Shown piece after piece: positions 1-30,000 of a stretch of 38,642 nucleotides of DNA. How positions within the stretch are numbered: the stretch's first letter is position 1; the number at the start of each line of letters is the position of its first letter. Location of the stretch: positions 1 to 38,642 of IMG/VR virus record IMGVR_UViG_3300043540_000789; one strand, given 5' to 3'. Position numbers and translations under genes: made by a program. The notes below the pieces were generated by a model that did no database searches, had not been told where the DNA came from, and saw only the letters and a list, made by a program, of their open reading frames with translations. This DNA comes from a virus.

Positions 1-232
1 TCAAGGCCACCTTCTGGCCGATTTCGGCCCCACACGTGCGCTCCCAAGCTTCATAGGCGTGCCGCGTAATGAGCCACCGGCGACCCAGCCGGATGCCCGG
101 CAGGATGCCCTGCTCCAACATCGCGTACACGGCGGGGCGACCAATATCAAGGCGCTTGGCCACCTGCTCGGCGGTGATGCGGGCGCTCGCCGCCGACTCT
201 AAACCTGAATGGGGGCTACTCTGCGCAATCAT
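1..232 (-). CDS. Excisionase/MerR-type HTH DNA-binding protein (3' end cut by window edge)
   Basis: The frame opens at an ATG (232) that overlaps the stop of the radical SAM gene as ATGA, and it runs off the left edge without a stop. The 77 visible residues hold a winged-HTH of the excisionase/HTH_17 type: ITAEQVAKRLDIGRPAVYAM, then a turn and a wing containing GIRLGRRWLIT. Such small proteins bind DNA as recombination directionality factors or as regulators. Its place at the end of the leftward block could put it next to an integrase just outside the window, but that is inference. The first ~18 residues before the HTH are Ser/Ala-rich and probably disordered. The HTH assignment is fairly sure; the choice between excisionase and regulator is open. 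Confidence 0.75.
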   Translation of the reverse strand, partial: MIAQSSPHSGLESAASARITAEQVAKRLDIGRPAVYAMLEQGILPGIRLGRRWLITRHAYEAWERTCGAEIGQKVAL

Positions 233-1212
233 TGGACAAGGGCCTCTTCCATGGCGCGCGGCCGCAAATCGCGGAGTTGGCGCGGTTGATAGTTCGCCGC
301 CCGCCATTCTTCCCAGGACACGCGCTTGTCATAGGCGCCAACAACCCACCGCTGAAACCCGACCAGCTCCGGAGTGCGCTGGTAGGGCATTGGATAGGGC
401 AGTGCGCCGAATTGGCGGAGCTTGCGCCGGCGGTAATCGCGGCCTTCGTGCGTCTCGCCGGGAGCGAAACCGATCAGCATGTAGACGAGAAGGTGGCGCG
501 GCCGCACTCCGTTGCGGCACAGCAGCTCCAGACCGGCGAAAAAGCGCGCTTCATCACGAGTGTTGTCCCAGGCCGTGTAGAGGCGGCGCTGGGCCATCCT
601 CGAATCGCGGTAATCCACTGAGGCGATCCCTTCGGCCTGTTCCGCCGTGACGATACGCGCGTTGATTCCCTGCGTGAAGCAAACCTTGAATCGGCCGTCG
701 CGGAGTTCCGCGAGCCGTTCGCGCCATTCCGGGTTGCCAAAGAAATCGTTGTCGAGCAGCACGATTTCCCGTGGCCACGGCTCGCCACGCCAGATTTCCG
801 CGATGGCGCCGTTCGCGCGGGCGCGTCCCTCTTTGGCGGGAACGACGCAGAACGGACACCGCATGCGGCAGCCGCGCATGGCGAAGCCGATGCTCTGGCG
901 ACAATCCGGATAAATGGAGTAGTCCATGTTAGCGGTCGTGATGCCGATGTCCTCCAGCCGGCGGGAGAGATCCCACCCTGTGCCGCCAATGAGCGCGTCG
1001 GGATAAGTATCGAGCACCTTCTGGACAAGCGGCCGGCTGCGCTCGAATATCGTGCTGGCGTACACACGATCGAAGTGTTCGTCGAACAGACCACCGAAAT
1101 CGGCGCCATGCCGAAGCTCGATGCTGTCTCCGCGCCGGCGGTGATGCGCTGCGACGCGCATGAGAGCGAGATTCGGCAGCTTGCCGTCGAGTTGGATGAG
1201 CAGCACGTTCAA
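229..1212 (-). CDS. Radical SAM enzyme, phage type
   Basis: A 327-aa protein with a CX3CX2C cluster (C115, C119, C122 in GCRMRCPFC), the signature that binds the [4Fe-4S] cluster and S-adenosylmethionine. The N-terminal ~80 residues (MNVLLIQLDG start, IGGTGWDL near residue 75) resemble the Rossmann-like leader of B12-type radical SAM proteins, but I see no cobalamin-binding DxHxxG. The substrate cannot be told from sequence. The start is a TTG overlapping the TGA of the 53-aa gene; a GGAG lies about 11 nt upstream. It is the fourth gene of a coupled chain (methyltransferase, DpdA-like, 53 aa, radical SAM, HTH). This hints at a role in nucleic-acid modification, but only by context. It is not QueE-like in its cysteine spacing. 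Radical SAM assignment is secure; the reaction is unknown. Confidence 0.88.
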   Translation of the reverse strand: MNVLLIQLDGKLPNLALMRVAAHHRRRGDSIELRHGADFGGLFDEHFDRVYASTIFERSRPLVQKVLDTYPDALIGGTGWDLSRRLEDIGITTANMDYSIYPDCRQSIGFAMRGCRMRCPFCVVPAKEGRARANGAIAEIWRGEPWPREIVLLDNDFFGNPEWRERLAELRDGRFKVCFTQGINARIVTAEQAEGIASVDYRDSRMAQRRLYTAWDNTRDEARFFAGLELLCRNGVRPRHLLVYMLIGFAPGETHEGRDYRRRKLRQFGALPYPMPYQRTPELVGFQRWVVGAYDKRVSWEEWRAANYQPRQLRDLRPRAMEEALVQ

Positions 1213-1370
1213 CGGCGCACGATCTCCGTGTACGCCCGCTCAATCAAGTCGCTGATCGCGATCAGCTTCTCGCTATCGATCCGGCCGCGCAGCCACTCGC
1301 GGATTTCATCCAGCACCTTGGCTTTGCGCTTCATCGCGTCCAGATCTTTGTATGTCAGCCCGCCATTCAT
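1209..1370 (-). CDS. Small helical protein, unknown function (53 aa)
   Basis: I chose the ATG at 1370 because AGGAGG sits 8 nt upstream and the ATG overlaps the stop of the DpdA-like gene as ATGA. The product begins MNGGLTYKDLDAMKRKAKVL and is charged and entirely helix-prone (Lys/Arg/Glu-rich with regular Leu/Ile). It has no cysteines and no membrane segment. Its stop overlaps the TTG start of the radical SAM gene, so it is translationally coupled on both sides. That suggests a partner or adaptor for one of its neighbours. I do not recognise a family. An upstream in-frame extension exists but has no ribosome-binding site and would overlap the neighbour. Confidence 0.7.
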   Translation of the reverse strand: MNGGLTYKDLDAMKRKAKVLDEIREWLRGRIDSEKLIAISDLIERAYTEIVRR

Positions 1371-2095
1371 CCGAACAACTCCTCCTGTTCGGGCACACTG
1401 GCCCACACGGGCGCGCTCTGCGCACTTTCGTAAGAATCGAGAAGTACTTGGGCACGCACCGGACCCGAAGCATGGCGGTAGCAACCGCCCCAGTTCGTGG
1501 TGCCCACGCCACGGGAAACACCCGCGGAATCGGCAGACGCAAGGGGAAGATGCTTACAGATGGCAGGCCGAAGCATCCGTAAGCCGTGCAGTTTCACCCT
1601 CGGCCTGCCCAGGCTGTCGCAGACGGTTTCCATGAGCTGCTGCACCCGGCTCCACCACTTCGGCGTGCCGATTGTCGCGTACTGCCCGGACGATCCCAGT
1701 GCTACGCGCGGCCACTCGGCCGCCAGTCGCTCCAATCGGTCGAGCGATTCATGGAAGTGCCACACCGGAACGCCGACATGTTTGCCGAGCGGCCATTCGG
1801 TCAAGAGCGCGTCGTTCGCCGCCTCATCCCCGTCGATTACGTCGGGAATAATGGCCCAGTCGAAACCAGGATGCTGCAACCATTCCGCAACCCAGCGATA
1901 GTACTGCGCCCAATCCACGGCGGCACCCTGCTTCCAGACAGAGAACGCGCCGTTATCGACTGCGAACGACTGCGTAACCTCCGCGGCGATTACCACCTGC
2001 TGCGGATCTGCGAAGGAGACCAGCGCGTGCCGGCGCTTCCAGATCTCGACGGCAACCTGCCACGTGGAATGGCGACCGCCATGGTAGTGGATCAC
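1367..2095 (-). CDS. DpdA/tRNA-guanine transglycosylase-like protein (putative 7-deazaguanine DNA modification)
   Basis: A 242-aa protein whose motif order matches the TGT-fold DpdA proteins of phages: a VDNGAF block (D47, analogous to the DSGGF motif holding the substrate-binding Asp of TGT), IIPDVIDGDE, a PVW(H)FHE strand, LGSSGQYATIGTP, KLHGLRM and ASADS (D189, the position of the catalytic Asp in the family). Family members exchange guanine for a 7-deazaguanine in tRNA (TGT) or in DNA (DpdA); phages use the latter to evade restriction. The GTG start is preceded by a near-perfect GGGAGGTGA and overlaps the methyltransferase stop as GTGA. No preQ0 synthesis genes (folE, queC, queD, queE) are visible here, so the host would have to supply the base or the genes lie elsewhere. 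Family placement rests on recognised motifs, not a search. Confidence 0.68.
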   Translation of the reverse strand: MIHYHGGRHSTWQVAVEIWKRRHALVSFADPQQVVIAAEVTQSFAVDNGAFSVWKQGAAVDWAQYYRWVAEWLQHPGFDWAIIPDVIDGDEAANDALLTEWPLGKHVGVPVWHFHESLDRLERLAAEWPRVALGSSGQYATIGTPKWWSRVQQLMETVCDSLGRPRVKLHGLRMLRPAICKHLPLASADSAGVSRGVGTTNWGGCYRHASGPVRAQVLLDSYESAQSAPVWASVPEQEELFG

Positions 2096-3630
2096 GGGGT
2101 CACCTCCCGCAGCACGCGGTCGACATGGTCGATCCGCTCCCCGATCCAGCTCATGACGGGTGTGGCCATGCTATTGCCGATCGCCTTGTATCGCGGGCCA
2201 TCCGGCGTAGCGCCCAGCCGCCGCGCCTCATCGAGCGGGATGCCCAGATACGCGGCCATCTCCTCGATCTCGTCCGCGCGAAGTTTCTGGTGGTAATTGG
2301 GGACCAGCGTGTGGTCGTCGGGAAATCCCTGGAGCCGCTCGCACTCCCTCGGCGTCAATCGCCGCACGGCTACCCACGTCGCCAGCAAGGGTGCGCCATC
2401 GCCGCGACCTGACGCACCGGACTGTGCCTTCAGCGGCGGCGCCACGATACCCGGAGCGCCGCGGCCGTTCCGCGCGAAGCGGGACTCGAAGACCACGGGG
2501 GGTGCAACGGCGCCACCGTCGCTCGCGAGCACGGGCGGTGTGACCTCGCGCGGCACGAAGCCGTCCTGGCCAAAGCCCCGAAAGGCGACCGCGAGCTGGC
2601 CGCCAGCATTCGCGTGCGAGTCGTGATGCCCCATCGCGCGCAGCGTCGGCGCGACATCCTCCATCGCGTCGGCGCCGGAATCCTTACACGAAAATCCAAC
2701 CGGCAGGATTGGCACGCCACGGCCGGTGCCGTCCTCGCTGGCGTCCATCCCCTCGCCACGGAGCGTGTGAGCGACCAAAGCCTCGCACGTGTCGACGCTC
2801 ATGCCAGGGGACCGGTCGCCGCCGGTGCGATTCGCACCAGCCAGCAGCGGAGGTGCTACCTCGACGCAGATTGTCTCCGTTTCGAAGTCCATCCGGCCAG
2901 AGCCGCCATGGGCGTTGCAGGCCGTCGCCACGTCGATCGGACCAGAGGTGTTGTTGCCTCCAAATGGAATCAGGTGGCCGGACTGGGCCTGGGTGTCGTC
3001 GCCGCCACACGTTCCAACGCCATGCGCAGTAAGGGCGGCAACACCCTGGCGCGCTTTTCGGCGCGGCGCAAGATCCCGGCGCAGGCTTTCGCGCTCAAAA
3101 AGTACCGCCGCGGCAGCCTGCCAGCTTCCAAGATGTCCGACAATGAAGACGCGGCGGCGGCGCTGGGGCACTCCGAAGAACTGAGCGTCCAAAATTCGGT
3201 ACGCGACCCCATACCCGAGTTCGACCAGCGTCCCGAGCACGGTTCCAAATGTCCGTCCAGAGTCAATCGACAGGACGCCGGGGACGTTTTCCCAGACGAT
3301 CCAGCGGGGGCGCAGGCGCTTAGCCAGTCGGAGAAACTCCAGCGTGAGGTTGCCACGCGGGTCATCCAATCCGAGCCGCTGGCCGGCGCAGGAGAATGGC
3401 TGACACGGAGTGCCTCCGACGCGAAGATCAATGGGAGTTGCTCCGACGCGCCGGAGCCAATGGCCCCTGATCGACGTGAAGTCGCCAAGATTACGAACCT
3501 CGGGAAAACGGTGAGCGAGCACGGCGCTCGCGAAGGGATTGATTTCAGCGAACCAGGCCGGAGTCCACCCCAATGAGTGCCACGCGACGGTTGCGGCCTC
3601 AATTCCGGAACAAACGGAGCCGTAGACCAT
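2092..3630 (-). CDS. dcm: C5 cytosine DNA methyltransferase
   Basis: Methylates cytosine at C5 in DNA using SAM, probably protecting phage DNA from host restriction. All core motifs are present from the ATG at 3630: motif I VYGSVCSGIEAA (residues 2-13), motif IV GGTPCQPFS with catalytic C76, motif VI WENVPG (E114), motif VIII QRRRRVF (~156), and motifs IX/X near the C-terminus (RLTPRECERLQGFPDD, then YKAIGNSMATPV). Between VIII and IX lies a long target-recognition region of about 240 residues with recurring VAPxL/TLRxxG-like phrases, usual in phage Dcm proteins. The product is 512 aa. A GTG at 3654 would add eight residues; neither start has a clear Shine-Dalgarno, and MVYGSVCSG is the usual N-terminus. 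It is coupled to the DpdA-like gene downstream. No cognate restriction enzyme is seen, so it is probably an orphan. Confidence 0.95.
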   Translation of the reverse strand: MVYGSVCSGIEAATVAWHSLGWTPAWFAEINPFASAVLAHRFPEVRNLGDFTSIRGHWLRRVGATPIDLRVGGTPCQPFSCAGQRLGLDDPRGNLTLEFLRLAKRLRPRWIVWENVPGVLSIDSGRTFGTVLGTLVELGYGVAYRILDAQFFGVPQRRRRVFIVGHLGSWQAAAAVLFERESLRRDLAPRRKARQGVAALTAHGVGTCGGDDTQAQSGHLIPFGGNNTSGPIDVATACNAHGGSGRMDFETETICVEVAPPLLAGANRTGGDRSPGMSVDTCEALVAHTLRGEGMDASEDGTGRGVPILPVGFSCKDSGADAMEDVAPTLRAMGHHDSHANAGGQLAVAFRGFGQDGFVPREVTPPVLASDGGAVAPPVVFESRFARNGRGAPGIVAPPLKAQSGASGRGDGAPLLATWVAVRRLTPRECERLQGFPDDHTLVPNYHQKLRADEIEEMAAYLGIPLDEARRLGATPDGPRYKAIGNSMATPVMSWIGERIDHVDRVLREVTP

Positions 3631-3749
3631 GCTAGACGCCGCACATGCCCACACACTCGTCTTGCCAGGAGGGATTGAGCCAACCGGCCGCCAAAGCGCA
3701 AAGGCCCTCCCATCCCAGCCGAAGCATTGCGCCGGGAAAACCTCTACGA

Positions 3750-3769
3750 TCGATGAGTCGTCTCATCGA
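3750..3769 (-). terminator. Perfect 8-bp hairpin after the small membrane gene
   Basis: TCGATGAG, TCGT tetraloop, CTCATCGA: a perfect stem lying seven bases beyond the stop of the 47-aa membrane protein, in the 145-bp gap before the methyltransferase. On the minus strand a run of four T follows about nine bases later, so it is at best a weak terminator or processing site. It could equally be an operator for the downstream block. Confidence 0.4.
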
Positions 3770-3775
3770 CAGTCG

Positions 3776-3919: not shown

Positions 3920-3993
3920 TCGTGTACCTCCGGTGCAAACAGCCAATTCGCGATGTTTGGGGCGATCACAGAGGCAAGGGCGAGGTTCTCCAT
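3916..3993 (-). CDS. Possible 25-aa coupled peptide
   Basis: An ATG nine bases after the DUF5131 stop opens a 25-residue frame (MENLALASVIAPNIANWLFA then PEVHE) whose TGA overlaps the next ATG as ATGA. There is no obvious ribosome-binding site. It fills the space between two real genes exactly and has a hydrophobic middle. It may be a genuine small protein or only a leader that couples translation. Confidence 0.35.
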   Translation of the reverse strand: MENLALASVIAPNIANWLFAPEVHE

Positions 3994-4002
3994 CGCGAGT
4001 TT

Positions 4003-4827
4003 CTACGCTGCCCGGCATAGGGCCGCCTCCGGCATCTGGTGCCACTCGCGGCCGTCCAGGAGACAGCCTCGGGCCTGGCTCCCCCAAGACTTGAAGAAGA
4101 ACGGAATACTTTCCGTGATGCACTGGTCGCGAACGGCCTTCGCCCACTCGGGGCACATCGGCCTCGCACCAGGGCCGGACTCGCCGCCAAGGATCAGCCA
4201 GTCCACCGCACGCTCGAAGAGACCGCCTTCTCCATTGGGAATCTCCACGCTTGTGGCCCCGCACGCATCGAGATCAACCCGTCCCAGCATCGGTTCCAAG
4301 CTGATCCCGCGCACGCTCACATCGGGAATGCGTAGGAGTTCGGTAGCCCGACTTGCCGTGGCCGGGCCTGTGACCGTTGTCAGCAACCAGAAGTTGGGTG
4401 GGCAGGCGTGACGTTCGAAGAATTGCCGTGCCCTGCCCGGCCGCTTCGTGCAGAGGATCCAAATGTGCGGAGCTTGCGCCATCGCCGCCAGGTACGGCGC
4501 AAGCCAGTCACTTGGAAGAGATTCCGTGAATATGTCCGCAAGGTCGCCGAGAAAGACCGTTCGGGGATAACCGCTCAACCATGGCTTTCCCGCGCGAACT
4601 TTGCCGGTGAGGTCGGCCCAACGGCAGGCCTGTTCAATGCGTCCGGCGAAGAAGTCCGGGATATCGAAAGATGCCGGCCAGCCGGCGCGGCCCGCGTAGC
4701 GGCCGACGAGGGAAGCCGCGTAGCAGTGGCTCTCAGCGGCGCCGGCGCGGTGCAACTCGCAGCCGTCGCAACCCACAACGGGGTTGACGGTGGAGTCACA
4801 CCAAGGGATTTTAGTCTCTTTCCCCAT
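4003..4827 (-). CDS. DUF5131 family protein (phage Gp37/Gp68-like)
   Basis: A 274-aa protein of the phage Gp37/Gp68 (DUF5131) family. Seen: the diagnostic N-terminus TKIPWCDSTVNPVVGCDGC followed by HCYAASLVGRYAG, then FLGDLADIFTE, ILCTKRPGRA, a GISLEPMLG block, WLILGGESGPGARPM and a C-terminal FFFKSWG. The clustered cysteines near residues 10-35 and the TIM-barrel-like alternation of motifs are family traits. A radical-SAM-like fold has been suggested for the family, but its biochemical role is not established. It starts at an ATG overlapping the upstream stop as TAATG, so it is coupled to the HTH gene. Common in phages and mobile elements, usually among non-structural accessory genes as here. 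Confidence 0.88.
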   Translation of the reverse strand: MGKETKIPWCDSTVNPVVGCDGCELHRAGAAESHCYAASLVGRYAGRAGWPASFDIPDFFAGRIEQACRWADLTGKVRAGKPWLSGYPRTVFLGDLADIFTESLPSDWLAPYLAAMAQAPHIWILCTKRPGRARQFFERHACPPNFWLLTTVTGPATASRATELLRIPDVSVRGISLEPMLGRVDLDACGATSVEIPNGEGGLFERAVDWLILGGESGPGARPMCPEWAKAVRDQCITESIPFFFKSWGSQARGCLLDGREWHQMPEAALCRAA

Positions 4828-14886: not shown

Positions 14887-15447
14887 ATGCGAACTCGCTA
14901 CTTGTTTTGGGCAGCCCTTGCTTGCGCCTGTCTCGGGCTGGACGTCATGGCGCAGCCATCCGCGCCGCTCCCGGCCGTCATTCCGATTTCGTTACAGCAG
15001 ACGATGACCACGGGCATGGTCGGCTTCACGCTGAACCAGACCGCCCGCCTCAGCGTTCTGAACCTGAACCCTGTTCCGTCTACCGCGAACGCGCAACCGA
15101 ACTGCACCGTTGAGCTACAGTTCTTCGATTCGCAGAACCATTCGTTGAAACAGAGTGTAGTCCCCAACTTTGCGCCGCAGACGGCCACTTCGCTGGACCT
15201 GACCGTGGTGCCTGCGACTGCCGCGTCGCTCACTCCGCCACGCGCGCAGGTTCGCGGTGTGGTGACCGTCAACCCGGCGCCGACTCCGGTAATGAGCCCC
15301 GCTGCTGTCGGCTACTGCGGCGTTATGGTCAGCCTGGAAATCTTCGACAATACGACCGGCAGCACCGCCGCTCTGACGACCGATACGCGCGTGATCAGCG
15401 GCATCATGCCTTTGGGGATAGTGCGCAACGGCGTCCTCAAGCCCTAA
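14887..15447 (+). CDS. Secreted protein of unknown function, plus-strand cargo
   Basis: 186 aa, on the strand opposite to its surroundings. A strong AGGAGGAG lies just before the ATG. The N-terminus is a Sec signal peptide (MRTRYLFWAALACACLGLDV) with likely cleavage near MAQ. The mature part is Pro/Thr/Ser-rich and looks like one beta-sandwich domain, with strands such as VELQFFDSQ and GVMVSLEIFDNTTGS and two Cys that may pair. Its stop overlaps the convergent tail-fibre stop by a few bases. A TAGAAT (14826-14831) could be a -10 box, but I see no good -35. It looks like a host-type exported protein acquired as cargo and expressed on its own, perhaps in the lysogen. The family is not recognised. 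Confidence 0.72.
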   Translation: MRTRYLFWAALACACLGLDVMAQPSAPLPAVIPISLQQTMTTGMVGFTLNQTARLSVLNLNPVPSTANAQPNCTVELQFFDSQNHSLKQSVVPNFAPQTATSLDLTVVPATAASLTPPRAQVRGVVTVNPAPTPVMSPAAVGYCGVMVSLEIFDNTTGSTAALTTDTRVISGIMPLGIVRNGVLKP

Positions 15448-18400
15448 ATGAACGAAGGACAGCTTTGTTGCTTCGGCAAGGGCAACGGCCATCCGAACAA
15501 ACAGAGGTGGTCGTATGCCCAGAACTTGATCACGGGAACGCCGGTCCGCTGCGCCGCCTGGTACTCGCGCTGCCAGGGCCACGCCCCCGTGTACCAGCCC
15601 ATCAGATACCGGCAGTGGGCGCGGTCCCAGGAGAGTTCCGCGAACGGGTATGCCGCGCACCGCTTGGCTTTGTCCAGATTGTGTTCCACGCCGGGGTACT
15701 GGTATCCCTCGGAGATGAAAGTGTCGAAGCCGGACCCGGCGCGCGCCTGCCACGCAGGCGGCAGATTCACATAGCGCAGCAACCGGCAGTTGTCCGGATC
15801 GTTCACGTCCATGGCCCAGAGCAGTTCGAACTGCGTAGACGGCCACTGCGCCAGGACCGCCGCCTGGATCGCCGCCACGTAGCTGCCCAATCGCGCACGC
15901 AGGAAGTTCGCGTCCGCGTACCCGTTGACGCTGGGATCGTCGTTGGCGGTAAGGAACGTGTGCAGCGTGCCGCCAAAAGCCGCCGTGGTGTCGTTATCGT
16001 AGAAGGCCATGCCGCTCGCGCCCTGGATGTACCACCACAGCACTTCCCCGAACTGGAGCCGTGGCGTCAGGCCGGCGGCGGCCATCAATCCGGCCATCTG
16101 GGCGAATGCCGACGCCATGTAGCTTTGTACCGGCGTTCCGAAGGCGGCCATGGAGCTTTTGAGGCTGGCGTATCCTGTGTCCGTCTCCGCGGCGGCGCCG
16201 CCAGGGAACCGCTGCACCCACACCTGCCCGTTAACTGGATCGTCGGGTGGGTTGACGAGCTCCTGCGAGAAGGATACGGTCACGCCGATTCCGGCCGCGC
16301 GGAGCGCCGAGAAGTAATCTGCGTGCCAATCGCGGAATGCCCGGTTGAGCGGCTGGTCCGCGCCCGGATCGATTACCCACTGGCCCACGCTCGACCCCGA
16401 ATGCAGATCCCCCGAGCACGCCACAGTGCCGTTCAGAGAACCGCTTTCGGCGACCGCGGGGTTATTGCTATACGTCCAGTTGGGCAGCCAGGATCGCACG
16501 GTGATCGTCAGGACCGGCCCTTCTGCCTTCGCCCACACGCCGACGAGCGTGGCGTTGATGAAGTATGCCAAGTGCGCGGCGACGGTGGACGGCGTGTCCT
16601 GGGCAAAGCACGTCTTCCCAATGGCCGTATCGCCGATGTGAACCCACACCTCGTCCTGGTCCTCAAACGTCCCGCCGAACGTCACGGTCGCGTGCGAGAA
16701 GGACCCACCGGCGCGCATCGCCTGCTTCCACCAGAACACCCCGCAGTAATGGTCGATCTCGCCGACCAGGCCGAGTTTCTGAATGTTCCAGATGACGCGT
16801 TGCGGCGAAAGCTTGTACGTGGCATCGGTATCGAAGTCCGTCGCCAGGGCCACATCCGTGCGCGTCTCCGGGGCGTCGGGAACGTCGCCAGGGACCGCGC
16901 ATTCCAGGAAATCGAAATAGAAGTACCAACCTTGGCTGTTGGCGTTCTTATCGGACTGGCACGTGATGACGACCGTGTGGCGCCCGGCCGCCACGTTCGA
17001 GAACAACTTACGGCGTACCTGGGCCGCCGCGCCGTAAGTGTCCAGCGTCACTGGAGCGCCTCCGTCGAGCGTCGCCCGGATGATGCCGCAGTTGAAGTCG
17101 ATGCGCGTGCCGACGTAAATGTCGTGCATGTGCTGGCAGTGCGTCTCAATCGTGAGAGACCGCGTCTCGTACTGGCTGTACGCTGAGCGAATCGCGCGCC
17201 CGCCGCTCCAGAAAGCGAAGCCATCCGACGGCGCCCACTCCCAATAGCCAGCCTGCGTGACCCAGGCGTTCGACTCCTCGATCCGCACAGAACCAGGCCC
17301 CGCGACCTTGAGCGCGCGGGCCCCGTAGAGATCGCGCACCGTCCAGTTCGTGACGGTGACGATCCATTCGGCGGGGACGTAAGCGGCGCTGTTCTGAAGC
17401 ACCGGCGCGAACGTCAGCCAGAGCTTTTGAAGATCTGTCCATCCGAGCGCATCGAAGTCTATCGCGACGTGCCACGTCAGGTTGTCCGAGGAACCGCCCA
17501 CCAACTGCACATGGTCCGGCGTGAAGCGGAGCGTGCTGGTCGCATGCAGTTCATAGAACGTCACCGAGTTGCCGTCCACGCCGGGCTCCGCGGTGATGGT
17601 GATGCAGGCGTTCCCCGTCTCTGAATCCGTGCCCGCCTCGGCTGAGAGCGCCACTGGACCGTTGTCGTTCCAATTCGTGTGGTTGATTTGATCGACAATA
17701 GCCGCGCAGACCTGAGCCGCAGTAACAGGCTTCAGCGAGGCAGAAGCGGAGCCGTCCGAACTGGAGACGCTGATCGGGCCCACGATGCCCGCCCGGAGCG
17801 TGACCGTAATCTCATTCCCTGCCAGCCCGCCCGCCGCGGCTGTGCAGTTCGGGTCGCCGGCCGTTATCTGGGTGGCGATGTTTGCCGCGATGGAAGCGGC
17901 ATCCGGCTCCGATCCCTGGTCGCAGGAGTAAGTCGCATCCGCGATTTTCACCCAGTGCCTGGCGCCGTTCAACATGACAGCGCCGGACCCATCGGAACTC
18001 GATACCTCTACGGGTCCCACCTGTCCCGCCCGAAGCGAGATCGTAATCGCGTTGCCGCTCGCGGTCGCCGTGCATTGGGTATCGTTCGCCGCGATCTGGC
18101 TGGCGATGTTCGATGCGATGGAGGCGGCATCCGGTTCCGATCCCTGGTCGCACGAATACCGGATCGAGCCCAGCTGCACCCAATGCGCCGCGCCATTCAG
18201 CGTTGCCGGTCCGGAACCATCGGAACTGGACACCGAGATAGGCCCGATCACCCCGGATCGGAGCGTGACGGTAATGGCGTTCGAAGTCACCGTGGCAGAA
18301 CAGTTCGGATCGCTCGCGTTGATCTGGTCGGCCAGGTTCTGAGCGATTTGCGCGGCCGTAAGGGCGCCCTGGCTACAGGTGTAAGTCGTGTTGCCGATCT

Positions 18401-20102
18401 TCACCCAATGGTTCGCCCCGGCCAGCGTCACCGTGCTGGAGCCGTCGGAACTCGACACGGTGACCGGACCGAGGACACCGGTCCTTAACGAGACGACGAT
18501 GGCATTGCTGTCCGCCGTGGCCGTGCAGTTCGGGTCGCTGCTGGCAATCTGCGAAGCGAGGTTCGAAGCCATCTCTGCCGCCGTAAGGGTGCCCTGCTGG
18601 CACGAGTACCGGTTGGCGCCGCACTGCACCCAATGGATGGCTTCGGAACTCCCCGACAGCGTGACCGATGTGGAACCGTCGGAACTCGACACCGTAACTA
18701 GCCCCACTTGCCCGCTGCGCAGAGACACCGTGATCGCGTTATTCGATGCGGTCGCCGTACACACCGGATCGCCGGCAGCAATGGCGCCCGCGATGGCCGA
18801 GGCGATCTCAGCCGCCGACAGACCGCCCTGATCCTGGCTGTATCGATTCGCTCCTACTTGCACCCAGTGGTGGTAGTCTTCAATCGTCGTCGGGCCGCCG
18901 CCGTCTGAGTCAGTGACTACAACCGGGCCGCCCTGCCCGCTGCGCAGACTGACGACGACGCCGTTTCCTTGTGCGCCTCCGGCCACGGCGGTGCATGCGG
19001 GATCTGAGGCGGCAATCTGAGCAGCGATGTTGGATGCGACCTGTGCGCTCGATAGGTAGCCCTGCAAACACGAGTACTGCGTCGAACCGATCTGCACCCA
19101 GTGCCGGTAATCATCCAGGGTTCCTGGTGCGGAGCCATCGGAACTGGAGATTGCAATCGGGCCGGGAACGTTGTCTTTCAGTTGGAACGTCAGCACGTTT
19201 CCGCTCATGGAGACGTTGACGTTCGGATCGCGCGCCACAATCTGCTCGCGGATGTTGTTGGTGATCTGGTTGGATGACCAGCCATTTTCATCGCAGTAAT
19301 ACTGCTGGCCAGCGATCCACACGCTGTGCCGATAAGCGGCATTGCCCTGCCACCAAAAGGCTTGCTGAACGCTCAGCGAAACCGGTTGCCACCAAATGTC
19401 CCGTTCGGTGGAGAGGGCGACGCTCTGCCACCAGATATCCTGCTCGCACGAGGTGGTCGTGCCAGCCGCCGCAATGTCCTGCTCACACGAACCGTTCACC
19501 GCCGACCAGTAGATATCCTGCTCACACGACGGCGAAGCCTGCTGCCACCAGATCTCCTGCTGGCAGGAACTCTGGCCGGCAGTGCTCCAGAAGATCGCCT
19601 GCACGCATGCCGCAGTGGAAGGCAGGACCGCGGAGTCGAACGCCCGGTTCTGATACCACAGCACCACGCGGTCGCCGGGCATCAGGTACGCGCCGGTGAG
19701 AACGAATTTACCGGAGGCGCCGGTGCGCCCTGCCGGACCCGTGGCAAGCTCGATCAGCTTCTTCTGGACGAGCTCCCCCGCGCCGTTGTACGCGTTGAGC
19801 GTTTGCCAGTCGGTCCACGGCCACTTCTTCGATTCGAACGGATGAATCCCGTGGAACGACACATCGAAGTCCAGTTTGATCCCGGCGAAGTTGCCGTCTG
19901 GCAGGTAAGAGAATCGCGGATGGCCGAACGGATCGTCCTTCTGAAACAGCACGAGCACCGCGAAATCTGCCTGATCGCGGAATACGCCCGACAGGTGGAA
20001 TCCGCCGTCCGACGCGCCCCACAATGCGGCCGCCGCTCCATAGGCGTCGAAGCCCTGGAGATGCATCGTCCGGTGAGGCTGGAACTTGAAAAGCTGGTCC
20101 AC
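15444..20102 (-). CDS. Giant tail fibre with tandem repeats and TIM-barrel-like C-terminus
   Basis: 1552 aa, starting at GTG (20102); a TAG six codons upstream rules out a longer form. Layout: an N-terminal ~160-residue structural domain; a Cys/Trp microrepeat region (165-252); seven tandem ~76-residue beta-rich repeats (257-790); a carbohydrate-module-like middle (~870-1080, with jelly-roll-like strands and TLTIETHCQHMHDIYVGTRI); and a C-terminal ~450 residues resembling a glycoside-hydrolase-like TIM barrel (FGEVLWWYIQGASGMAFYDN, WAMDVNDPDNCRLLRYVNLP, FDTFISEGYQYPG). It probably binds and perhaps cleaves a surface glycan. It lies after the tip protein, as receptor-binding fibres do, but a plus-strand DUF262 gene separates them. 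Enzymatic activity is unproven. Confidence 0.85.
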   Translation of the reverse strand: MDQLFKFQPHRTMHLQGFDAYGAAAALWGASDGGFHLSGVFRDQADFAVLVLFQKDDPFGHPRFSYLPDGNFAGIKLDFDVSFHGIHPFESKKWPWTDWQTLNAYNGAGELVQKKLIELATGPAGRTGASGKFVLTGAYLMPGDRVVLWYQNRAFDSAVLPSTAACVQAIFWSTAGQSSCQQEIWWQQASPSCEQDIYWSAVNGSCEQDIAAAGTTTSCEQDIWWQSVALSTERDIWWQPVSLSVQQAFWWQGNAAYRHSVWIAGQQYYCDENGWSSNQITNNIREQIVARDPNVNVSMSGNVLTFQLKDNVPGPIAISSSDGSAPGTLDDYRHWVQIGSTQYSCLQGYLSSAQVASNIAAQIAASDPACTAVAGGAQGNGVVVSLRSGQGGPVVVTDSDGGGPTTIEDYHHWVQVGANRYSQDQGGLSAAEIASAIAGAIAAGDPVCTATASNNAITVSLRSGQVGLVTVSSSDGSTSVTLSGSSEAIHWVQCGANRYSCQQGTLTAAEMASNLASQIASSDPNCTATADSNAIVVSLRTGVLGPVTVSSSDGSSTVTLAGANHWVKIGNTTYTCSQGALTAAQIAQNLADQINASDPNCSATVTSNAITVTLRSGVIGPISVSSSDGSGPATLNGAAHWVQLGSIRYSCDQGSEPDAASIASNIASQIAANDTQCTATASGNAITISLRAGQVGPVEVSSSDGSGAVMLNGARHWVKIADATYSCDQGSEPDAASIAANIATQITAGDPNCTAAAGGLAGNEITVTLRAGIVGPISVSSSDGSASASLKPVTAAQVCAAIVDQINHTNWNDNGPVALSAEAGTDSETGNACITITAEPGVDGNSVTFYELHATSTLRFTPDHVQLVGGSSDNLTWHVAIDFDALGWTDLQKLWLTFAPVLQNSAAYVPAEWIVTVTNWTVRDLYGARALKVAGPGSVRIEESNAWVTQAGYWEWAPSDGFAFWSGGRAIRSAYSQYETRSLTIETHCQHMHDIYVGTRIDFNCGIIRATLDGGAPVTLDTYGAAAQVRRKLFSNVAAGRHTVVITCQSDKNANSQGWYFYFDFLECAVPGDVPDAPETRTDVALATDFDTDATYKLSPQRVIWNIQKLGLVGEIDHYCGVFWWKQAMRAGGSFSHATVTFGGTFEDQDEVWVHIGDTAIGKTCFAQDTPSTVAAHLAYFINATLVGVWAKAEGPVLTITVRSWLPNWTYSNNPAVAESGSLNGTVACSGDLHSGSSVGQWVIDPGADQPLNRAFRDWHADYFSALRAAGIGVTVSFSQELVNPPDDPVNGQVWVQRFPGGAAAETDTGYASLKSSMAAFGTPVQSYMASAFAQMAGLMAAAGLTPRLQFGEVLWWYIQGASGMAFYDNDTTAAFGGTLHTFLTANDDPSVNGYADANFLRARLGSYVAAIQAAVLAQWPSTQFELLWAMDVNDPDNCRLLRYVNLPPAWQARAGSGFDTFISEGYQYPGVEHNLDKAKRCAAYPFAELSWDRAHCRYLMGWYTGAWPWQREYQAAQRTGVPVIKFWAYDHLCLFGWPLPLPKQQSCPSFI
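17733..19328 (-). repeat. Seven tandem ~76-residue repeats in the tail fibre
   Basis: Units begin with HWVxxGxxxYSC (protein positions ~259, 334, 412, 490, 565, 640 and 716), pass through a helix (AAQIASNIAAQI-like), DPNCTA, a strand AITVSLRSG, and end VSSSDGS plus a short loop. Period is 75-78 residues (225-234 bp). Most units carry two Cys, one after YS and one after DPx, a probable disulfide. A decayed eighth unit (AAQVCAAIVDQIN) follows at ~794. The DNA copies have diverged, so this is an old amplification. Confidence 0.9.
19347..19610 (-). repeat. Cys/Trp microrepeats in the tail fibre
   Basis: About seven short units, each ~12-14 residues, of the form SCEQDIWWQ: CVQAIFW, CQQEIWW, CEQDIYW, CEQDI, CEQDIWW, TERDIWW, VQQAFWW. 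Cysteine is lost in the last two. The pattern of one Cys and one or two Trp per unit is unusual for a phage fibre. Confidence 0.85.
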
Positions 20103-21877: not shown

Positions 21878-24800
21878 TCAGGAGTACACGAAGACTGACA
21901 GGTCCGCGCCAGGATAGACGGTCCCGACGGCGGTAATGGCGAGCCGGATATTGGTGTTGGCCGGAATCGTCTCGGCCCCATCGATCTGCGCCGCGGTGGC
22001 CGCAGCGGATTTACTGCCCGCCGGAATCGTCAGGGTCATCCAAGGGTCGCTCCCGGCGCCGATATAGATAGACAGGACCAGCGCCGAGCCCAGCGGAGCG
22101 GACTTCAGATACGCCTTCACCGCGCCGGCGGTGAAATCCTTGGCGAGATAGAAGGCGGGTGCCGCGTCGGCCTGGATCCCCAGCACGCCATTGGCCGGGA
22201 GCGTGAAGCCCGCCACCTTGCCGGCGCCCTCCGCGCCGAACACCCAATCCTCGCGCAGGGGCACGTCGCCGTCGCCCGACTCGTTGCCGTTCACATCCAC
22301 GGTGAAGCCGGCGACCAGCAGCGCCTGATCGATGTAGTTGTCCGTGGGGATATTCAGCGTTACCGCGCGTAGGGAATCGGCGTTGTTGATCGTGGTCGAG
22401 TCGCCCGTGTAATCCCACGCCGGCGCCTCCACAATCCAGACGGAGGTCTGGTCGAGCACCAGGGGCAGGTCCCAGGACAACTGCGTGGGCGTGTTGCCGG
22501 TGATCTTGCGCAACTGGCCGCGCCCCGTGCCCGCAATCACGCGCAGAACGTTGCCGACCTCCGATCCGGGCGCCATGCCATCGGGGTACTCGACGTTCTG
22601 ACAACCCGAGTCGGTAATCTGCGTCGGAGTTGCGGAGTTCTCCGCGTCGGCCTTGTATCGGATCACGAAGACGTCATCCACCTGGACCGACAATTCCTGA
22701 CGGCCCGTAACAACCGCCTGGGGCGAGACGGTGAGCGTGCCCGTGGCGCTGTCGTAAGCCGTGATCGTCAGGTTGAGGAACGGCGCACTGCTCTCAGGCC
22801 GCCCAATGATGGACAGGACCCGCCCGACCGGATTGAACGAGGTCAAGTGCTCGGTGTCGATCAGCCAGGAACTGACGATCTGGTTCGGAGCGTTCACCGC
22901 AGTTACCGGCGCGCCGATGATGCCGCTGTGGGCGATGCGCTTCCCCTTGACCCGGATTTTCGACACATACGGGGATGGCAGGGCCCACGTCGAACGCGCC
23001 AGAGGACCGCCGAACGTGATCGACCCCGGCGTGTACGTGTTGTTCTCTCCGGGCGTCAGGTTTCCGGTTGCCTGTGCGCAGATCTGGCCGTCCTCAGCGC
23101 CGACGAACAGAACGTAGCAGGCCAGCCCGGCGACCGCCGGCCACGTAATGTTGTCCAGCGTGAAGGAGCCGCCGGCCTGCTGACCGGTGCAGATCAGGAC
23201 GATGTTGGAGGGCGGCGATGGCCGTCCGTCCGAATCGATGGCGCACAGGGCCGCACGCAATGTCGTATTGGCGGGGAGCGAGCCGCCGGTCGTGGACCGC
23301 AAGCTCGATCCGATCCCCGGCGCGCCAGCACCCGGCGAGAACTGGTTCACCGGCAGTTTCCCGGTGATGATGAGATTCGCCAGCGCGCTGCCGTCGGCTA
23401 GGATCGTGTACGTCTGGTTCGAATCGAAGGTCCACTCGTTCGGGAACAGCGCGTCCCACGAGGCGGCCTGCACCTGGTAGGGCGCCCAGGCGGGGCCCAG
23501 GGGGATCGGATAGAAGAGGCCGGGAAGCGGCGCGGGCGTCACATCCGCCGGCTTCGGTCCCTGGTCCAGGTCGTACATCGAGTCGGTAACAGTCTGCGCC
23601 TCGATCTGGACGGACCAGTCCTTCCGCAGGCTCCACCGTTGTATCCGGAACTTGCCGGTCCCGCCGGGAACGTCGGGGTGCGTGATCGAGACGACTTGGC
23701 CCACCTCGTTGCCCAGTCCCAGGAGGGTCGTGCCCCAAGTGGCCACGCGCGCACTGCGCCACTCGGTGGGATTGATGCCGCCAATTTCTTCGCGCACGCG
23801 CGTGGCCGCGATCCGGAGCGCCTGGCTGAGCGTCGAGCAGCCCACCGAGTGCATCTGGCTGGTGAGCGGCGACTGCGCGCGGCCGTAATAGGCGGCGTGG
23901 CTCTTATCACAGTACTCGGCGGTGTTGGCCTGGTAAGCGTATGCCACGTCGGCGAAGGAAAGGACGAGCTTCTCGAAGGCCGCCTGAATGGGCGTCAACC
24001 GCAGGCTCTGAAACAGCATGTTGGCCTGGGTGTACGCATCCACCGCACTGGCATTGATGCGGCACCCGAGCTTCAGCTTCCCGAACTCCCAGGTGTAGAA
24101 CCCGAGACAGCAGTTGAGCACTTCCGCCAGCCAGTCCCGGAATGGCTTCTGTGTGCTGATCACGCCTTGGAACTGGAACTGCGTCTCGGTGATCGCGTAA
24201 GTATCCACTTCGGCATACCCGGCGGCCACCGCGTCGGCGATCGGCAGAACGACCAGATTCTGCTGCCCGTCGTAATAGTTCTGCGGGTCGCTGCAATACT
24301 GAAACGTCCAACTGCCGTCCGGATTGCGGTTGATCTGCGCGCCGTTCAGCACCTGCCCCTCGGCGGTGATCGAATACGCCGTGCCGGACGTGGCGCCCAG
24401 GATCGGGGGTACCTGGGCGGCGGCGATCTCGGCGGCGCCGCTTCCGTCGCCCGCGATGAGCGACGGGAGCACGAACGCCGCCACTTGATCCGCCGACGCG
24501 GGCCCGGAGCCGCCGGCGGGGTTCGAACCGGTCGAGGGATCGCCATAGAGCCCCATGGCCCGCAGCACCATGTTCACGGCGATCCAGAACGGGTTCACCA
24601 GGCCGCGAACCGCCGACCGGTTGCCGTCTTTATCCCACGTCCAGCCCCATAGGCCGAAATCGATCGGGACCTTCATCTGGTGCTGGTCCGGCGTGCTGGG
24701 CTGGATCTTGCTGTCCTTCTGAATCCGGATCTCGCAGGCCGCGGTGCCTGCCGCGAAGATGTTCGGTTGCCACACCTGCGGACTGCCTTGGCCGAGCGAG

Positions 24801-26302
24801 AATGAATCGGTCGCGGGATTCGCCGGGTCGTTGCCAGGGATATAGCGCAGGCCGTATCCCGGTTGGTACTTCGAGACGTTCAGATTCCCATCGAGTTTGA
24901 GGCCCTGCCAGAGGAATCCATCCACCATCGGCGCGACCACGTACCGGTAGCCATCGGCATTCTGGACCACCATCGAAGCGGTGAACCCGCCCAGCGGGCC
25001 GGCGCCCAGGATGCCCAGGGAATCGGCATAGTCGGACTCGTCGCGATAGGCAACGAGCATCGCTATCGCGAAGAAGGCGAACAGCGGGTTGCCCCCGCTG
25101 TTGCACCAGATTTCGGGCAGCGCGAGGCCCCACACCGTATCGGAGATGATCGACGTGGCAGTGACCTTATTCCGGCCGAGTCCGGCGAACCCGGTCGAAT
25201 TGTCCAGGATGTTCACGCCCTGGGGATCGGCCTGCTGGCCGCCGAAGTACTTGGCCATGCCGTGCGCCTGGCAGCCGTTGGCCGACTCCAGGTAATAGTC
25301 GCAAGACGCCGGATCGCCGCCGCTCCCGTGGGCCGCGTAGGGACAGTTCACGCCGTCGTCGAAGATCTTCCAGCACTGCCGGCTAACCACGCGCTCCGGG
25401 TACTGGTTCATGATCTGGAAGAACCCGTCGGAGCACGTTACCGGGAAACTGGCAGTGCCATCGCTCACGAAATTCTGGATAACGCCCTTCCACAGTTGGA
25501 GCAGGATGCCGGAATTGACGTGGAACAGGCACAGATCGATCTCGGCGTACTTGAGATCCGTGTCGTTCGCCAACTGCGTCATCACCCGGTCGGCGTTGCC
25601 GAACGTGAAGCGCACGTTGTCCGACGATCCCTTGATGTCCTGGGAGATGATCGCGTCGGAGCCGGGTTCGCCGATGCCGATGAGCCGCGGCAGGTACAAC
25701 TGGCTGCCGACGGTGACGCGCCGGTCGGAGAGGTAGATGTCCGGCACCGCCTGCTCGCGCACGCGGATGTGAATCAGCGGCACAATCTGCTGCACCTCGG
25801 ACGACAACGCCGTCGAGAGCGCGCTCGAGGGGAACCGCACGCAGGTGGATGCGACCGTGTAGCTGGGCGCCTGGGCGGGATCGACCACCTCCACGAAGGT
25901 CAGTCCGGCCTGCACGGCGTTGCGGAGGTACTCCAGTGAAAGCGGAGCCTGGTCGAAGGTGACGAGCGTAGCCGTCGTCGTGCTATCCGGATTCGGAACG
26001 TTGTACGTGAACGCCTTCCACGCCCCCTGCATGTCCTCCCAGAAGGCGCGCAGCGCGCGGGATTCGCTCCAGTTGAGGTTCGGCCTCCGGAACTGGAACT
26101 TGCGCGGGCCGATGCCGGAGTAATACCGCTGCTCCTGTTTGGCGTCGAGCGTCCCGAAGCGGTGGACGATCACACTCCGCTCCACGGACATGCCGAACGG
26201 ATGCTGCGTGACCAGCGGGAATACCTGGGTGCCCGAGATGCCGGAGCCGCCGGTTGATAGGACAATGCCCGGAACCGTAATCCTGCCAATCGTGTCGCTC
26301 AT
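21878..26302 (-). CDS. Fused tail tip protein (L-like and J-like/baseplate hub domains)
   Basis: 1474 aa. Residues ~150-360 resemble the minor tail proteins of the lambda gpL/BR0599 type: YLPRLIGIGEPG, then a four-Cys block CWKIFDDGVNC, PASCDYY, NGCQAHGMAKYFGG (~305-355), like the Fe-S-binding region of gpL. Residues ~700-950 look like a J/gp27-type hub: FRDWLAEVLNCCLGFYTWEF, then VREEIGGINPTEW and GNEVGQVVSITHPDVPGGTG. The last ~450 residues are beta-sandwich-like (fibronectin/Ig-type strands) and may reach the fibre. It overlaps the upstream gene as ATGA. Two genes that are separate in lambda appear fused here. It should form the tip that contacts the cell envelope. Confidence 0.85.
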   Translation of the reverse strand: MSDTIGRITVPGIVLSTGGSGISGTQVFPLVTQHPFGMSVERSVIVHRFGTLDAKQEQRYYSGIGPRKFQFRRPNLNWSESRALRAFWEDMQGAWKAFTYNVPNPDSTTTATLVTFDQAPLSLEYLRNAVQAGLTFVEVVDPAQAPSYTVASTCVRFPSSALSTALSSEVQQIVPLIHIRVREQAVPDIYLSDRRVTVGSQLYLPRLIGIGEPGSDAIISQDIKGSSDNVRFTFGNADRVMTQLANDTDLKYAEIDLCLFHVNSGILLQLWKGVIQNFVSDGTASFPVTCSDGFFQIMNQYPERVVSRQCWKIFDDGVNCPYAAHGSGGDPASCDYYLESANGCQAHGMAKYFGGQQADPQGVNILDNSTGFAGLGRNKVTATSIISDTVWGLALPEIWCNSGGNPLFAFFAIAMLVAYRDESDYADSLGILGAGPLGGFTASMVVQNADGYRYVVAPMVDGFLWQGLKLDGNLNVSKYQPGYGLRYIPGNDPANPATDSFSLGQGSPQVWQPNIFAAGTAACEIRIQKDSKIQPSTPDQHQMKVPIDFGLWGWTWDKDGNRSAVRGLVNPFWIAVNMVLRAMGLYGDPSTGSNPAGGSGPASADQVAAFVLPSLIAGDGSGAAEIAAAQVPPILGATSGTAYSITAEGQVLNGAQINRNPDGSWTFQYCSDPQNYYDGQQNLVVLPIADAVAAGYAEVDTYAITETQFQFQGVISTQKPFRDWLAEVLNCCLGFYTWEFGKLKLGCRINASAVDAYTQANMLFQSLRLTPIQAAFEKLVLSFADVAYAYQANTAEYCDKSHAAYYGRAQSPLTSQMHSVGCSTLSQALRIAATRVREEIGGINPTEWRSARVATWGTTLLGLGNEVGQVVSITHPDVPGGTGKFRIQRWSLRKDWSVQIEAQTVTDSMYDLDQGPKPADVTPAPLPGLFYPIPLGPAWAPYQVQAASWDALFPNEWTFDSNQTYTILADGSALANLIITGKLPVNQFSPGAGAPGIGSSLRSTTGGSLPANTTLRAALCAIDSDGRPSPPSNIVLICTGQQAGGSFTLDNITWPAVAGLACYVLFVGAEDGQICAQATGNLTPGENNTYTPGSITFGGPLARSTWALPSPYVSKIRVKGKRIAHSGIIGAPVTAVNAPNQIVSSWLIDTEHLTSFNPVGRVLSIIGRPESSAPFLNLTITAYDSATGTLTVSPQAVVTGRQELSVQVDDVFVIRYKADAENSATPTQITDSGCQNVEYPDGMAPGSEVGNVLRVIAGTGRGQLRKITGNTPTQLSWDLPLVLDQTSVWIVEAPAWDYTGDSTTINNADSLRAVTLNIPTDNYIDQALLVAGFTVDVNGNESGDGDVPLREDWVFGAEGAGKVAGFTLPANGVLGIQADAAPAFYLAKDFTAGAVKAYLKSAPLGSALVLSIYIGAGSDPWMTLTIPAGSKSAAATAAQIDGAETIPANTNIRLAITAVGTVYPGADLSVFVYS

Positions 26303-26788: not shown

Positions 26789-27094
26789 ATGCATCACAAA
26801 ACCGCCAAAGAAACGGTCATCGAGGAGTGCCGCCGGATCGAGACGCTCCTACTGGCGCTCGCCGAAGCCGCCGGCCGCCGGTTCCACGCGCCGCTCGATG
26901 AGCCGGACTTCGAGAGTACCGACGGGCCCGATTACGCCTGGGGCCTGCGCCGGTTGCGCATCCATTGCGAGCGCGTGGCGCAATTCACGGAGGGCATCGA
27001 CGCCGACCTCGATGCCGCCTTGCACAAGATCTCGATGGAAAATATCCGTGCCAACCCCCGCGAGGCGCGGCCAGCGATGTTCCAGGTCAACTGA
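26789..27094 (+). CDS. Small helical protein, plus-strand cargo (101 aa), unknown function
   Basis: The ATG at 26789 has GAGGTG about eight bases upstream. The product is almost wholly helical and charged: MHHKTAKETVIEECRRIETL, then a loop with Asp/Glu/Pro (DEPDFESTDGPDYAWG), then helices RRLRIHCERVAQFTEG and LDAALHKISMENI. It reads like a three- or four-helix bundle with no membrane or catalytic motif. It runs against the late genes and its stop overlaps the convergent tape-measure stop by eight bases. Size, strand and isolation fit a moron-type accessory gene, for example an exclusion or anti-defence factor, but function is unknown. Confidence 0.6.
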   Translation: MHHKTAKETVIEECRRIETLLLALAEAAGRRFHAPLDEPDFESTDGPDYAWGLRRLRIHCERVAQFTEGIDADLDAALHKISMENIRANPREARPAMFQVN

Positions 27095-30000
27095 CCATCA
27101 GCCCCGGCACCTGCATGTTGGCCGCCTGTTGCGTGCGGCCGTAGCTCCCGCCCTGCGCCGCCATGGACTGGTCCATCACGAATTCCGGCGTAATCGGCGT
27201 GCCGTTGATGTTAAGTGCGATGGTCGTGCCGCCCATTCCTCCGGCTGGCAGCACGCCGGGCGTGGGATACGGACTCGTGGCGATCCCGCCCAGCGTCGGG
27301 ATGCCCGACTGGTAGCTGTGCCACTGGTTGTTCTGGAAACTCGCCTGTTGGTAGAGGTTGCCGCCAACCTCCGCGAGGCTGCCGCCGTAAGGCGTCGCGG
27401 CCGACAACGGCATCTTCTGGCCGGTGGCTTCGGAGTAGAGCATCACCAGTTGGCGCACGCTGGGCGAACGCACCGCCACTGAGATCTCGCCACCGAACTG
27501 TTGCTGCGCGATGGCGACCACCTGTTTGACCGTGCCGCTGTTTTTCGGTATGTCAACGCCGTAAACCTGCTTGATCAGCTTCGCCGCGTGAGATTCGGGA
27601 GTCTCCACACCGAAGAGTTTCTCCCCAAACCCGATCCCAAACCCGGCTGCCGCGCCAATCCCGGCTCCAAGCAGTGCGCCAGCGGGGCCAAACTGCGCAC
27701 CCATGCCGGCTCCGACGAGTGCGCCGCCTGCCGTATCCATGGCCATCCCGCCCCAGGTTCCGCGGTGCGAGCCGACCATCCCGCTCATTCCCAACATGAG
27801 GCCGGCAGTCGTCGCCGCCGGGGACGTGAGCACGGAGCCGGCATAAGCCCCAAAACTGGTGCCGGTAGCATCCCACATCTTCTGGTTGATTACGGCGCCC
27901 TTAAGGTTCGCGAGCGATCCCTTCAGGTTCGTGAGCGAGAACCCAGAGCGATCGCTCGTGCCTCCCACGCCCACCATCGCAATAGGACTCCAGCCCGAGC
28001 GCTGCACCCCACCAACCCAGGGCGCGGGGGTGTATCCACCGGCCGGGGAATAACCGCCCGCCCCGCTGTCGCCACCACTGGAGCCGCTACCAACCGGCGT
28101 CGGCGCGTAAATAATCGTGCTGGCTGATGCCGTCTCAGAACCGGCGCCGAACAAAGGCGGGATGTTCACGGTGCCGATGCCGGGAACAGGAATCGGCAAC
28201 GAAGGCGCGCGCCCGCCCATCATCGGCTGGATCATCGACTTCGCGAACCAGCCCAGCACGCCGGTGTTGCTGTGCAATTCGAACGTCAACGCATCGATGC
28301 TCCGCTTCAGCGTATCGGCCCGTGGCACTACCGCCTCGCCCTCGTGGACGACCGCCGTACCGGTCCTGGCGACCGTGCCGCCCTCGTCGTACTGCGGCAG
28401 TTTCCCGCGACCGCCCATACGCCCGCTCTGCTGGCTCCGGATTTGCCGCTCCGTCTTGACGAATGCGTCGCGCAAATGTGGATAGAGCGCGTCCAGCAAC
28501 TCACTGGCCGCGTGCGTGGTCTCTGGAACATCCACTGGAGAGCCGATGTAGTTGCCGCTGGGGTCCAGTTCCGGATCGCGGTTCGCCATGATCATGCGTC
28601 GCGTCTCGCCGCTCTTCGCGCCGCCTTTGCGGCCGAGGGCGACACGTTGCTCATGCGTCATTCCCCACACGTCGCGCCCGCCCTCCTTCCAATACCATTC
28701 GGACTCCGGATCGCTCACGCCCCTGGGACCGATCTTCGGCTTCCGCATGTACTCCAGGTTGCGCGGCGCGCGCACGGAAGCGGAACCTGAGAGCGGTTCC
28801 ATCCCAAGCAGTTCACGCGCCGAGTCCGTGAGGCGCATCCAATCGCCTTCGCGCTCCGCGAGGCCTTTGCGGACCAACGCGGCGCGAACCTGCGACGACT
28901 GCTCCGTGAGCTTCAGGCTTTCGAACGGCTCCTCCCAATTGATCGGGCCGTGCTTCATCGCCGCCAAATACAGCGCCTGCCCGATGCCCTGCCCGCGCAA
29001 TTCCTCGGGGATGCCCATGGTGCTGATTCGCTGTCTACTGGCCGGGAGCTTCGGATTGTAGACATCGCGAATCAGCCCTTCGCCACTGTAGGACACGTCC
29101 TCATTGGCGCCCGGCCACGTGAATCGCTGCTGCGGACCCAGCCAGAGCGTCTGGCCGGGCATCTCCATCCATTCCCCAGGACGGGTCGTCACCTGGACCT
29201 TTTTCACCATGCTGGCGATGCGGGCCAACTTCGCCTCGTCGCTCAACGCCGCGTATCCGCTCGCTCCCGGCGGGCCCATCGGCACCATGCCCAGCATCAC
29301 GCCGTCCCTGCGCTCGGGCGTCATCGCTGCCACACCGCCGGTCAACAGGGCCATGAGGCTCTCGCCGACGCTGATACCGGCAGGCCCGCCCAGTGCGCTG
29401 AGGCCAGCGGGCAGTGCGACGTTGAACAGGCCCATGGTGGCCTTCTCCAGTGCCGCATCCGTCTCCGGCCCGTAATGGCCCACCAGGTTCACGCTGGGCG
29501 GCAAGCCCATATTCCGGAGGCGCTTCAGCGGGATTACCAGTTCCGGGCCAGCCTCGCCCACAATGCTCGGTCCCGTGACCACGCCGCCTTCGGCGAACCG
29601 CGGCAGGCCTCCGGTATTGCGGAGCATCTGCGTCAGGAAGCCGGAAGGCGACGCAACCCCGATATTCGGCGCCACCGCACCGCCCTGGGACGTGAGCGCG
29701 GGTACGCTCCTGCCCATGAACTCCGAAAGGACGGCGGTGAGCAACCAGATCGCGTTGGAGTTCTGCTTCGTGGCCGTCGTGTTGTCGGACGTGACCGTGA
29801 TCGGATCCTGCTTGATGCCACCGCCGAAGGATCCGCCCAGGATGCTGGCGATGCCGCCTTGGCCGAACAGCAACGGGTGAATGGCATTGGCAACCATGCC
29901 GCCGAGACCCTCCTCGACGGGCTTCAGCGTGGCGTCGCGGACGGTCGACCCGAGTTGCTTTGGGAAATCGCCCGGTTTGGTGAAGAGCGTATGCGCCAGC

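Follow-up and report, generated by a model that had tools for sequence, protein, structure and literature searches.

In the 2019 survey of phage DpdA (Hutinet et al. 2019, PMC6884629), the largest group, phages that have a DpdA but no pathway genes, was left as 'difficult to predict', YhhQ correlated with no group, and the absence of H196 was the criterion separating DpdA2 from the 9g-type DpdA. Salmonella phage 7-11 and Pantoea phage MED16 have dADG in their DNA and no preQ0 genes, with LC-MS/MS placing this mark at 0.02% of G in 7-11 and 0.13% of G in MED16 (PMC8306585, PMC6884629). In the MED16 study, 354 marks per million nucleotides were given and little restriction protection came from dADG. 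Gene-dependent deazaguanine in phage DNA has been reported for CAjan only; for 7-11 and MED16 the reports concern its presence alone, and the low dADG of these two phages could come partly from host DNA or host enzymes. Cap10 of type IV CBASS belongs to a defence system and acts with protein, not DNA, binding a deazaguanylated protein N-terminus (PMC11996544).

The window studied here, meaning the entire stretch of 38,642 bases that was analysed, is a soil phage record classed as linear and possibly a fragment. As it codes for a DnaB-primase, RusA, an exonuclease and tail and head proteins, it can be assigned to a tailed phage; it also holds three very long open reading frames (Table 1). On the minus strand lies an ORF with a GTG start and its stop codon at 1367-1369, which very probably encodes a short, host-fed DpdA of TGT fold that would swap guanine in the phage DNA for a 7-deazaguanine base. 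The initial annotation had reached a DpdA/TGT assignment from four motifs, VDNGAF (around D47), LGSSGQY, KLHGLRM and ASADS (ending in D189/S190), and all four were found in the ORF. They are not due to chance, because PHROG 887 ('queuine tRNA-ribosyltransferase') matches the protein with an E of 5.8e-70 and relatives occur in 27 IMG/VR loci (single-sequence search, 42-77% identity) and in 117 phage records, each below 60% identity, among them BTP1, SPN3UB, SfI, Epa33 and Pam5. A profile search for relatives of the short DpdA gave at least hundreds of loci. From species genomes 80 short-dpdA loci were kept, mostly from proteobacterial isolates together with some MAGs, and the family also occurs in temperate phages that infect Salmonella, E. 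coli, Shigella and Klebsiella.

Table 1. Features of the window discussed in the text, with the matches or observations that describe them.
Feature	Position	Strand	Length	Match or observation
Radical SAM protein	229..1212	-	327 aa	TTG start; phrog_9298, E 6.5e-51; overlaps stop of 53-aa ORF
53-aa ORF	1209..1370	-	53 aa	ATGA overlap with dpdA stop; at the queD place of close relatives
dpdA-like gene, short ('singleton'-type) predicted DNA-guanine transglycosylase	1367..2095	-	242 aa	PHROG 887, fold, residues, selection
C5 cytosine DNA methyltransferase	2092..3654	-	520 aa	PF00145, E 1.9e-51; phrog_116
DUF5131 (Gp37/Gp68-like) protein	4003..4827	-		PF07505, E 1.1e-53; far side of the methyltransferase-dpdA cassette
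Very long ORF	15444..20102		1552 aa	PHROG of unknown function
Very long ORF	21878..26302		1474 aa	no PHROG
Very long ORF	27087..32384		1765 aa	

The length of the protein and the replacement of DSGGF by DNGAF had been taken as oddities. Both proved to be the norm of the family, as seen in an alignment of 77 rows and in the length of complete members, which is mostly 225-260 aa. Every one of the 77 rows has D47, G49, A50, W54, P84, D85, H113, G134, R173, D189 and S190, and 76 have a histidine at position 170; by homology, D47, D85, H113, H170 and D189 are the putative catalytic and base-binding residues of the window protein. Comparison of the gene with five close relatives gave dN/dS values of 0.10-0.19, indicating purifying selection and pointing to a working protein. 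In a quick family tree with some weak forks, for which rows of 9g-type DpdA formed the outgroup and L127, L169, L173 and L187 (internal stop) were left out, the window DpdA falls in a distinct clade of eight rows (SH-aLRT 100) that is tied to Acidobacteriota.

General databases gave little for this protein. Nothing exceeded the cutoffs of Pfam and NCBIfam, PF01702 (TGT) was not matched in Pfam at E values up to 10, and searches of PADLOC and of PDB sequences returned nothing informative, PADLOC having no match for either the DpdA or its radical SAM neighbour. The profile of the 77 family rows met only chance coiled-coil matches among PDB sequences.

The structure prediction that had been proposed as a check, with comparison to TGT, supported a TIM barrel of TGT type. 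The AlphaFold2 model has a pLDDT of 93.2 and a pTM of 0.90. Foldseek by itself returned TGT interspersed with further TIM barrels, tryptophan synthase alpha among them, some of which ranked above TGT, but upon structural realignment of its list the top rows were chains of TGT, DpdA and Cap10 with Z of 14-15.8. These included Cap10 (9ntn; Z 15.8, rmsd 3.5, 230 aligned), archaeosine TGT (1j2b; Z 15.5, rmsd 3.8, 224 aligned), human TGT (7nq4; Z 14.6, rmsd 3.5, 223 aligned) and a bacterial DpdA (7ui4; Z 14.1, rmsd 3.2, 209 aligned). When the 77-row profile was compared by hhalign with a seven-row profile of 9g-type DpdA, the probability was 99.3% (E 2.7e-20, 159 columns), with D47, D85, H113, W147, H170 and D189 of the window protein paired with D72, D114, H141, W175, H196 and D215 of 9g, respectively. 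As H170 is aligned with H196, the window protein is not a DpdA2. By homology, the predicted nucleophile is D189, and D47 would act as general acid/base. A profile search against DpdA and TGT families had also been suggested, and here the DpdA half held, whereas neither PF01702 nor a profile comparison with a TGT alignment of two sequences only gave a match; the link to TGT therefore rests on structure and on the 9g-type DpdA. Taken together, family, fold and catalytic residues bear out the DpdA/TGT assignment.

That the top structural match is the Cap10-CdnD structure 9ntn, just 0.3 Z over archaeosine TGT, raises the question of whether the enzyme acts on protein in the manner of Cap10, for example by adding deazaguanine to a host immune protein or removing it as a counter-defence. 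We consider this the least likely of the readings weighed here, given that the profile joins the family to 9g DpdA, that the invariant DpdA residues are kept, that its partners are DNA methyltransferases and that QueC, the would-be counterpart of Cap9, lies beside dpdA in only two loci.

Several lines of evidence point to DNA as the substrate of the short DpdA. In a prophage of Rosenbergiella metrosideri (L182:7884-9614) a short DpdA is fused in a single frame of 576 aa to a D12-class N6-adenine DNA methyltransferase. Across related loci, which are not independent of each other, 14 DNA methyltransferase matches fell within 300 bp of dpdA (111 kb of flank in total), against six in 772 kb beyond 4.5 kb. 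In addition, the DpdA proteins of MED16 and 7-11 are 37 and 38% identical, respectively, to that of the window over about 190-200 residues and nest inside the short-DpdA family tree. The databases nevertheless name the family 'queuine tRNA-ribosyltransferase', and its TGT fold, its high structural scores and preQ0-related neighbours (QueD, QueE, QueC and VUT) that would equally feed tRNA queuosine could all suit a phage tRNA-guanine transglycosylase that raises the queuosine or preQ0 content of tRNA, whether of host or phage, and so favours translation. This is unlikely, as the likely hosts already have a TGT, the zinc-site motif CxCxxC of TGT is absent from every short-DpdA family protein examined, DNA methyltransferases are fused or adjacent to dpdA, and two members of the family come from phages with modified DNA.

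In the window itself, the C5 methyltransferase gene was correctly placed directly before dpdA by the initial annotation, the stop of the one and the start of the other sharing the 4 bp GTGA. Such overlaps are chained (GTGA, ATGA, TTGA) through the methyltransferase, dpdA, the 53-aa ORF and the radical SAM gene, which suggests that the four may be co-translated. Homologs of the methyltransferase also adjoin dpdA elsewhere, lying 21 bp after it in two loci of Acidobacteriota genomes (L118, L133). A pair of base modifications in this phage, as had been proposed, is plausible. The further description of the region as a modification operon stands only in part. A phage contig (L214) keeps the backbone of the window on both sides (DnaB 79%, DUF5131 73% and radical SAM 81% DNA identity) without the methyltransferase, dpdA or the 53-aa ORF, and has other genes there (window 1212-4003 versus L214:4880-6001); the segment is more like a swappable cassette than a fixed operon. 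This position is perhaps a hotspot for cassette exchange. The DUF5131 gene, common to both phages, is part of the backbone; its product matches the PADLOC candidate defence models PDC-M41B and PDC-M30B.

The run of overlapping genes also leaves room for a different outcome, in which the enzyme inserts some other modified base or the radical SAM protein two genes downstream alters the inserted deazaguanine. We regard this as very unlikely. The radical SAM gene is a backbone gene, because L214 retains it without dpdA; dpdA occurs in only two of 80 loci with a radical SAM homolog, and no radical SAM homolog was detectable in the dpdA loci. It is thus probably not part of dpdA function, and the radical SAM protein was set aside as a hypermodifying partner.

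HMMs built here for QueC, QueD, QueE and VUT found none of these in the window, a linear and possibly incomplete contig beyond which the phage may extend, in agreement with the earlier statement that it lacks genes for 7-deazaguanine synthesis. Such genes do adjoin dpdA in relatives. The HMMs, made from seeds checked by Pfam, identified 40 matches in 38 of 187 related loci, namely QueD in 22, a VUT (YhhQ-type) transporter in 10, QueE in six and QueC in two. All 40 are on the strand of dpdA and no more than about 600 bp from it, though flanks of up to 8 kb were searched. The identity of QueD as PTPS/QueD was supported by Pfam and NCBIfam, with three proteins above the QueD equivalog cutoff; that of QueC by the same databases (above cutoff in L036); that of QueE by best NCBIfam/Pfam matches, yet below their cutoffs; and that of the transporter by Pfam Vut_1. 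The 80 phage loci of a control set, selected through an unrelated gene, yielded VUT in just the two with dpdA and none of QueC, QueD and QueE. The five largest neighbour clusters, which include shadow ORFs of dpdA as judged by strand and position, were set aside.

The fullest pathway beside a member of the family is in L036 (1691-3608), where dpdA is directly followed by QueC and QueE. Microbacterium phage Megan (L213:1-1458) has two adjacent genes named 'queuine tRNA-ribosyltransferase' and then a QueC-like gene. Genes resembling PAPS reductase occur near short dpdA at variable distance in about 20 loci (e.g., L081:2329-3186).

Among the 13 closest relatives (69-77% identity), QueD begins 0-6 bp after dpdA in 12 (L001-L005, L007-L010, L111-L113). 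In the window and in L006, its sister, this position is taken by the 53-aa ORF, which is common only to these two; a longer reading of it, of 91 aa, had no match in Pfam. Most simply, the ORF would have replaced queD in the common ancestor of the window and L006, the direction of the change being the less certain part. After the tree was thinned at 82% identity, at least 19 changes of partner state were counted, against a mean of 22.3 and a minimum of 20 upon shuffling, so that partners have been gained or lost many times, with some of the absences false owing to incomplete flanks.

The initial annotation had left two options, a base from the host or another substrate for the enzyme. The nearest relatives by DNA of the dpdA, methyltransferase and DnaB genes come from genomes and MAGs of Acidobacteriota (65-78% identity), and the host therefore probably belongs to that phylum. 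Three host-like Acidobacteriota MAGs with the closest dpdA all encode QueC, QueF and TGT. Full-length QueC is present in 43 of the 49 genomes carrying short dpdA, a figure of consistency rather than enrichment, since many bacteria have QueC anyway; the other six lack it, and one of the dpdA loci without full-length QueC, that of an actinomycetote MAG (L179), has a VUT gene beside dpdA. The supply of the base by the host is the better supported of the two options. A different substrate is unlikely, since many relatives have a gene for making or importing preQ0 next to dpdA, and the doubt over the substrate is largely answered by the relatives.

From the computed fold, family, residue conservation, selection and neighbourhood, and from the QueC, QueF and TGT of the likely hosts, we infer an activity, a substrate base, a host and a role for the window protein as follows. 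The short DpdA would cleave the glycosidic bond at selected guanines of the phage DNA, with D189 holding the DNA sugar and D47 assisting as acid/base, as homology with 9g-type DpdA and TGT predicts. A 7-deazaguanine base, most likely preQ0 or its amide, would be put in the place of guanine to give dPreQ0 or dADG, the base being bound by D85, H113 and the G134-S136 loop. It would be drawn from the queuosine pathway of the host, the phage apparently making none. In close relatives, the QueD directly after dpdA may raise the supply of the base, while the lineage of the window has the 53-aa gene there. The C5 methyltransferase would add an independent mark, probably against restriction, and the inserted preQ0 and the methylated cytosines would most likely blunt host restriction together.

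The weak protection seen with MED16 and its few marks per million nucleotides make sparse, site-specific marking possible as well. It is conceivable, though rather doubtful, that the short DpdA is in general a host-fed marking module, in which phages repeatedly gain one supply gene that fits the limiting step of the host, be it QueD, QueE, QueC or an importer of YhhQ type, and which places sparse marks at particular sites, often with a DNA methyltransferase, rather than serving bulk anti-restriction.

The recurrent pairing of the short DpdA with one gene for making or importing preQ0, and the fusion of DpdA with a methyltransferase, appear to be new, though part of this may be known from the 2023 DpdA subfamily paper (gkad657), which lay outside our comparison. 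For the phages left aside by the 2019 survey, the neighbourhoods described here argue that the short-DpdA family would use the preQ0 pathway, mostly supplied by the host, and they name concrete phages where a single partner gene (queD, queE or the importer) could be probed.

Compared with described systems, the window protein resembles Cap10 (9ntn) in structure about as closely as it does archaeosine TGT, but no protein partner like that of Cap10 was seen with it. It shares the TGT-type barrel with TGT (Z 14-15.5), while being about 130 residues shorter and having neither the zinc-binding CxCxxC nor a sequence match to the small TGT profile. The same barrel is found in bacterial DpdA 7ui4, the solved chain of which has 413 residues against 242. 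The DpdA of the 9g/CAjan type (Hutinet et al. 2019, PMC6884629) has the same invariant residues, including the match to H196, but differs in being 305-317 aa long, about 23% identical in pairwise comparison and accompanied by genes for a complete preQ0 or G+ pathway. The window DpdA, probably host-fed, belongs to a known kind and is closest to the singleton phage DpdA group of 7-11, MED16 and Salmonella phage SW9 (DpdA/TGT_1 of PMC8306585), whose members are about 230-276 aa, have the same motifs, come from phages without a full preQ0 pathway and nest among the rows of the family, apart from the 9g type. These three singleton phages have no QueD, whereas the close relatives of the window protein carry it.
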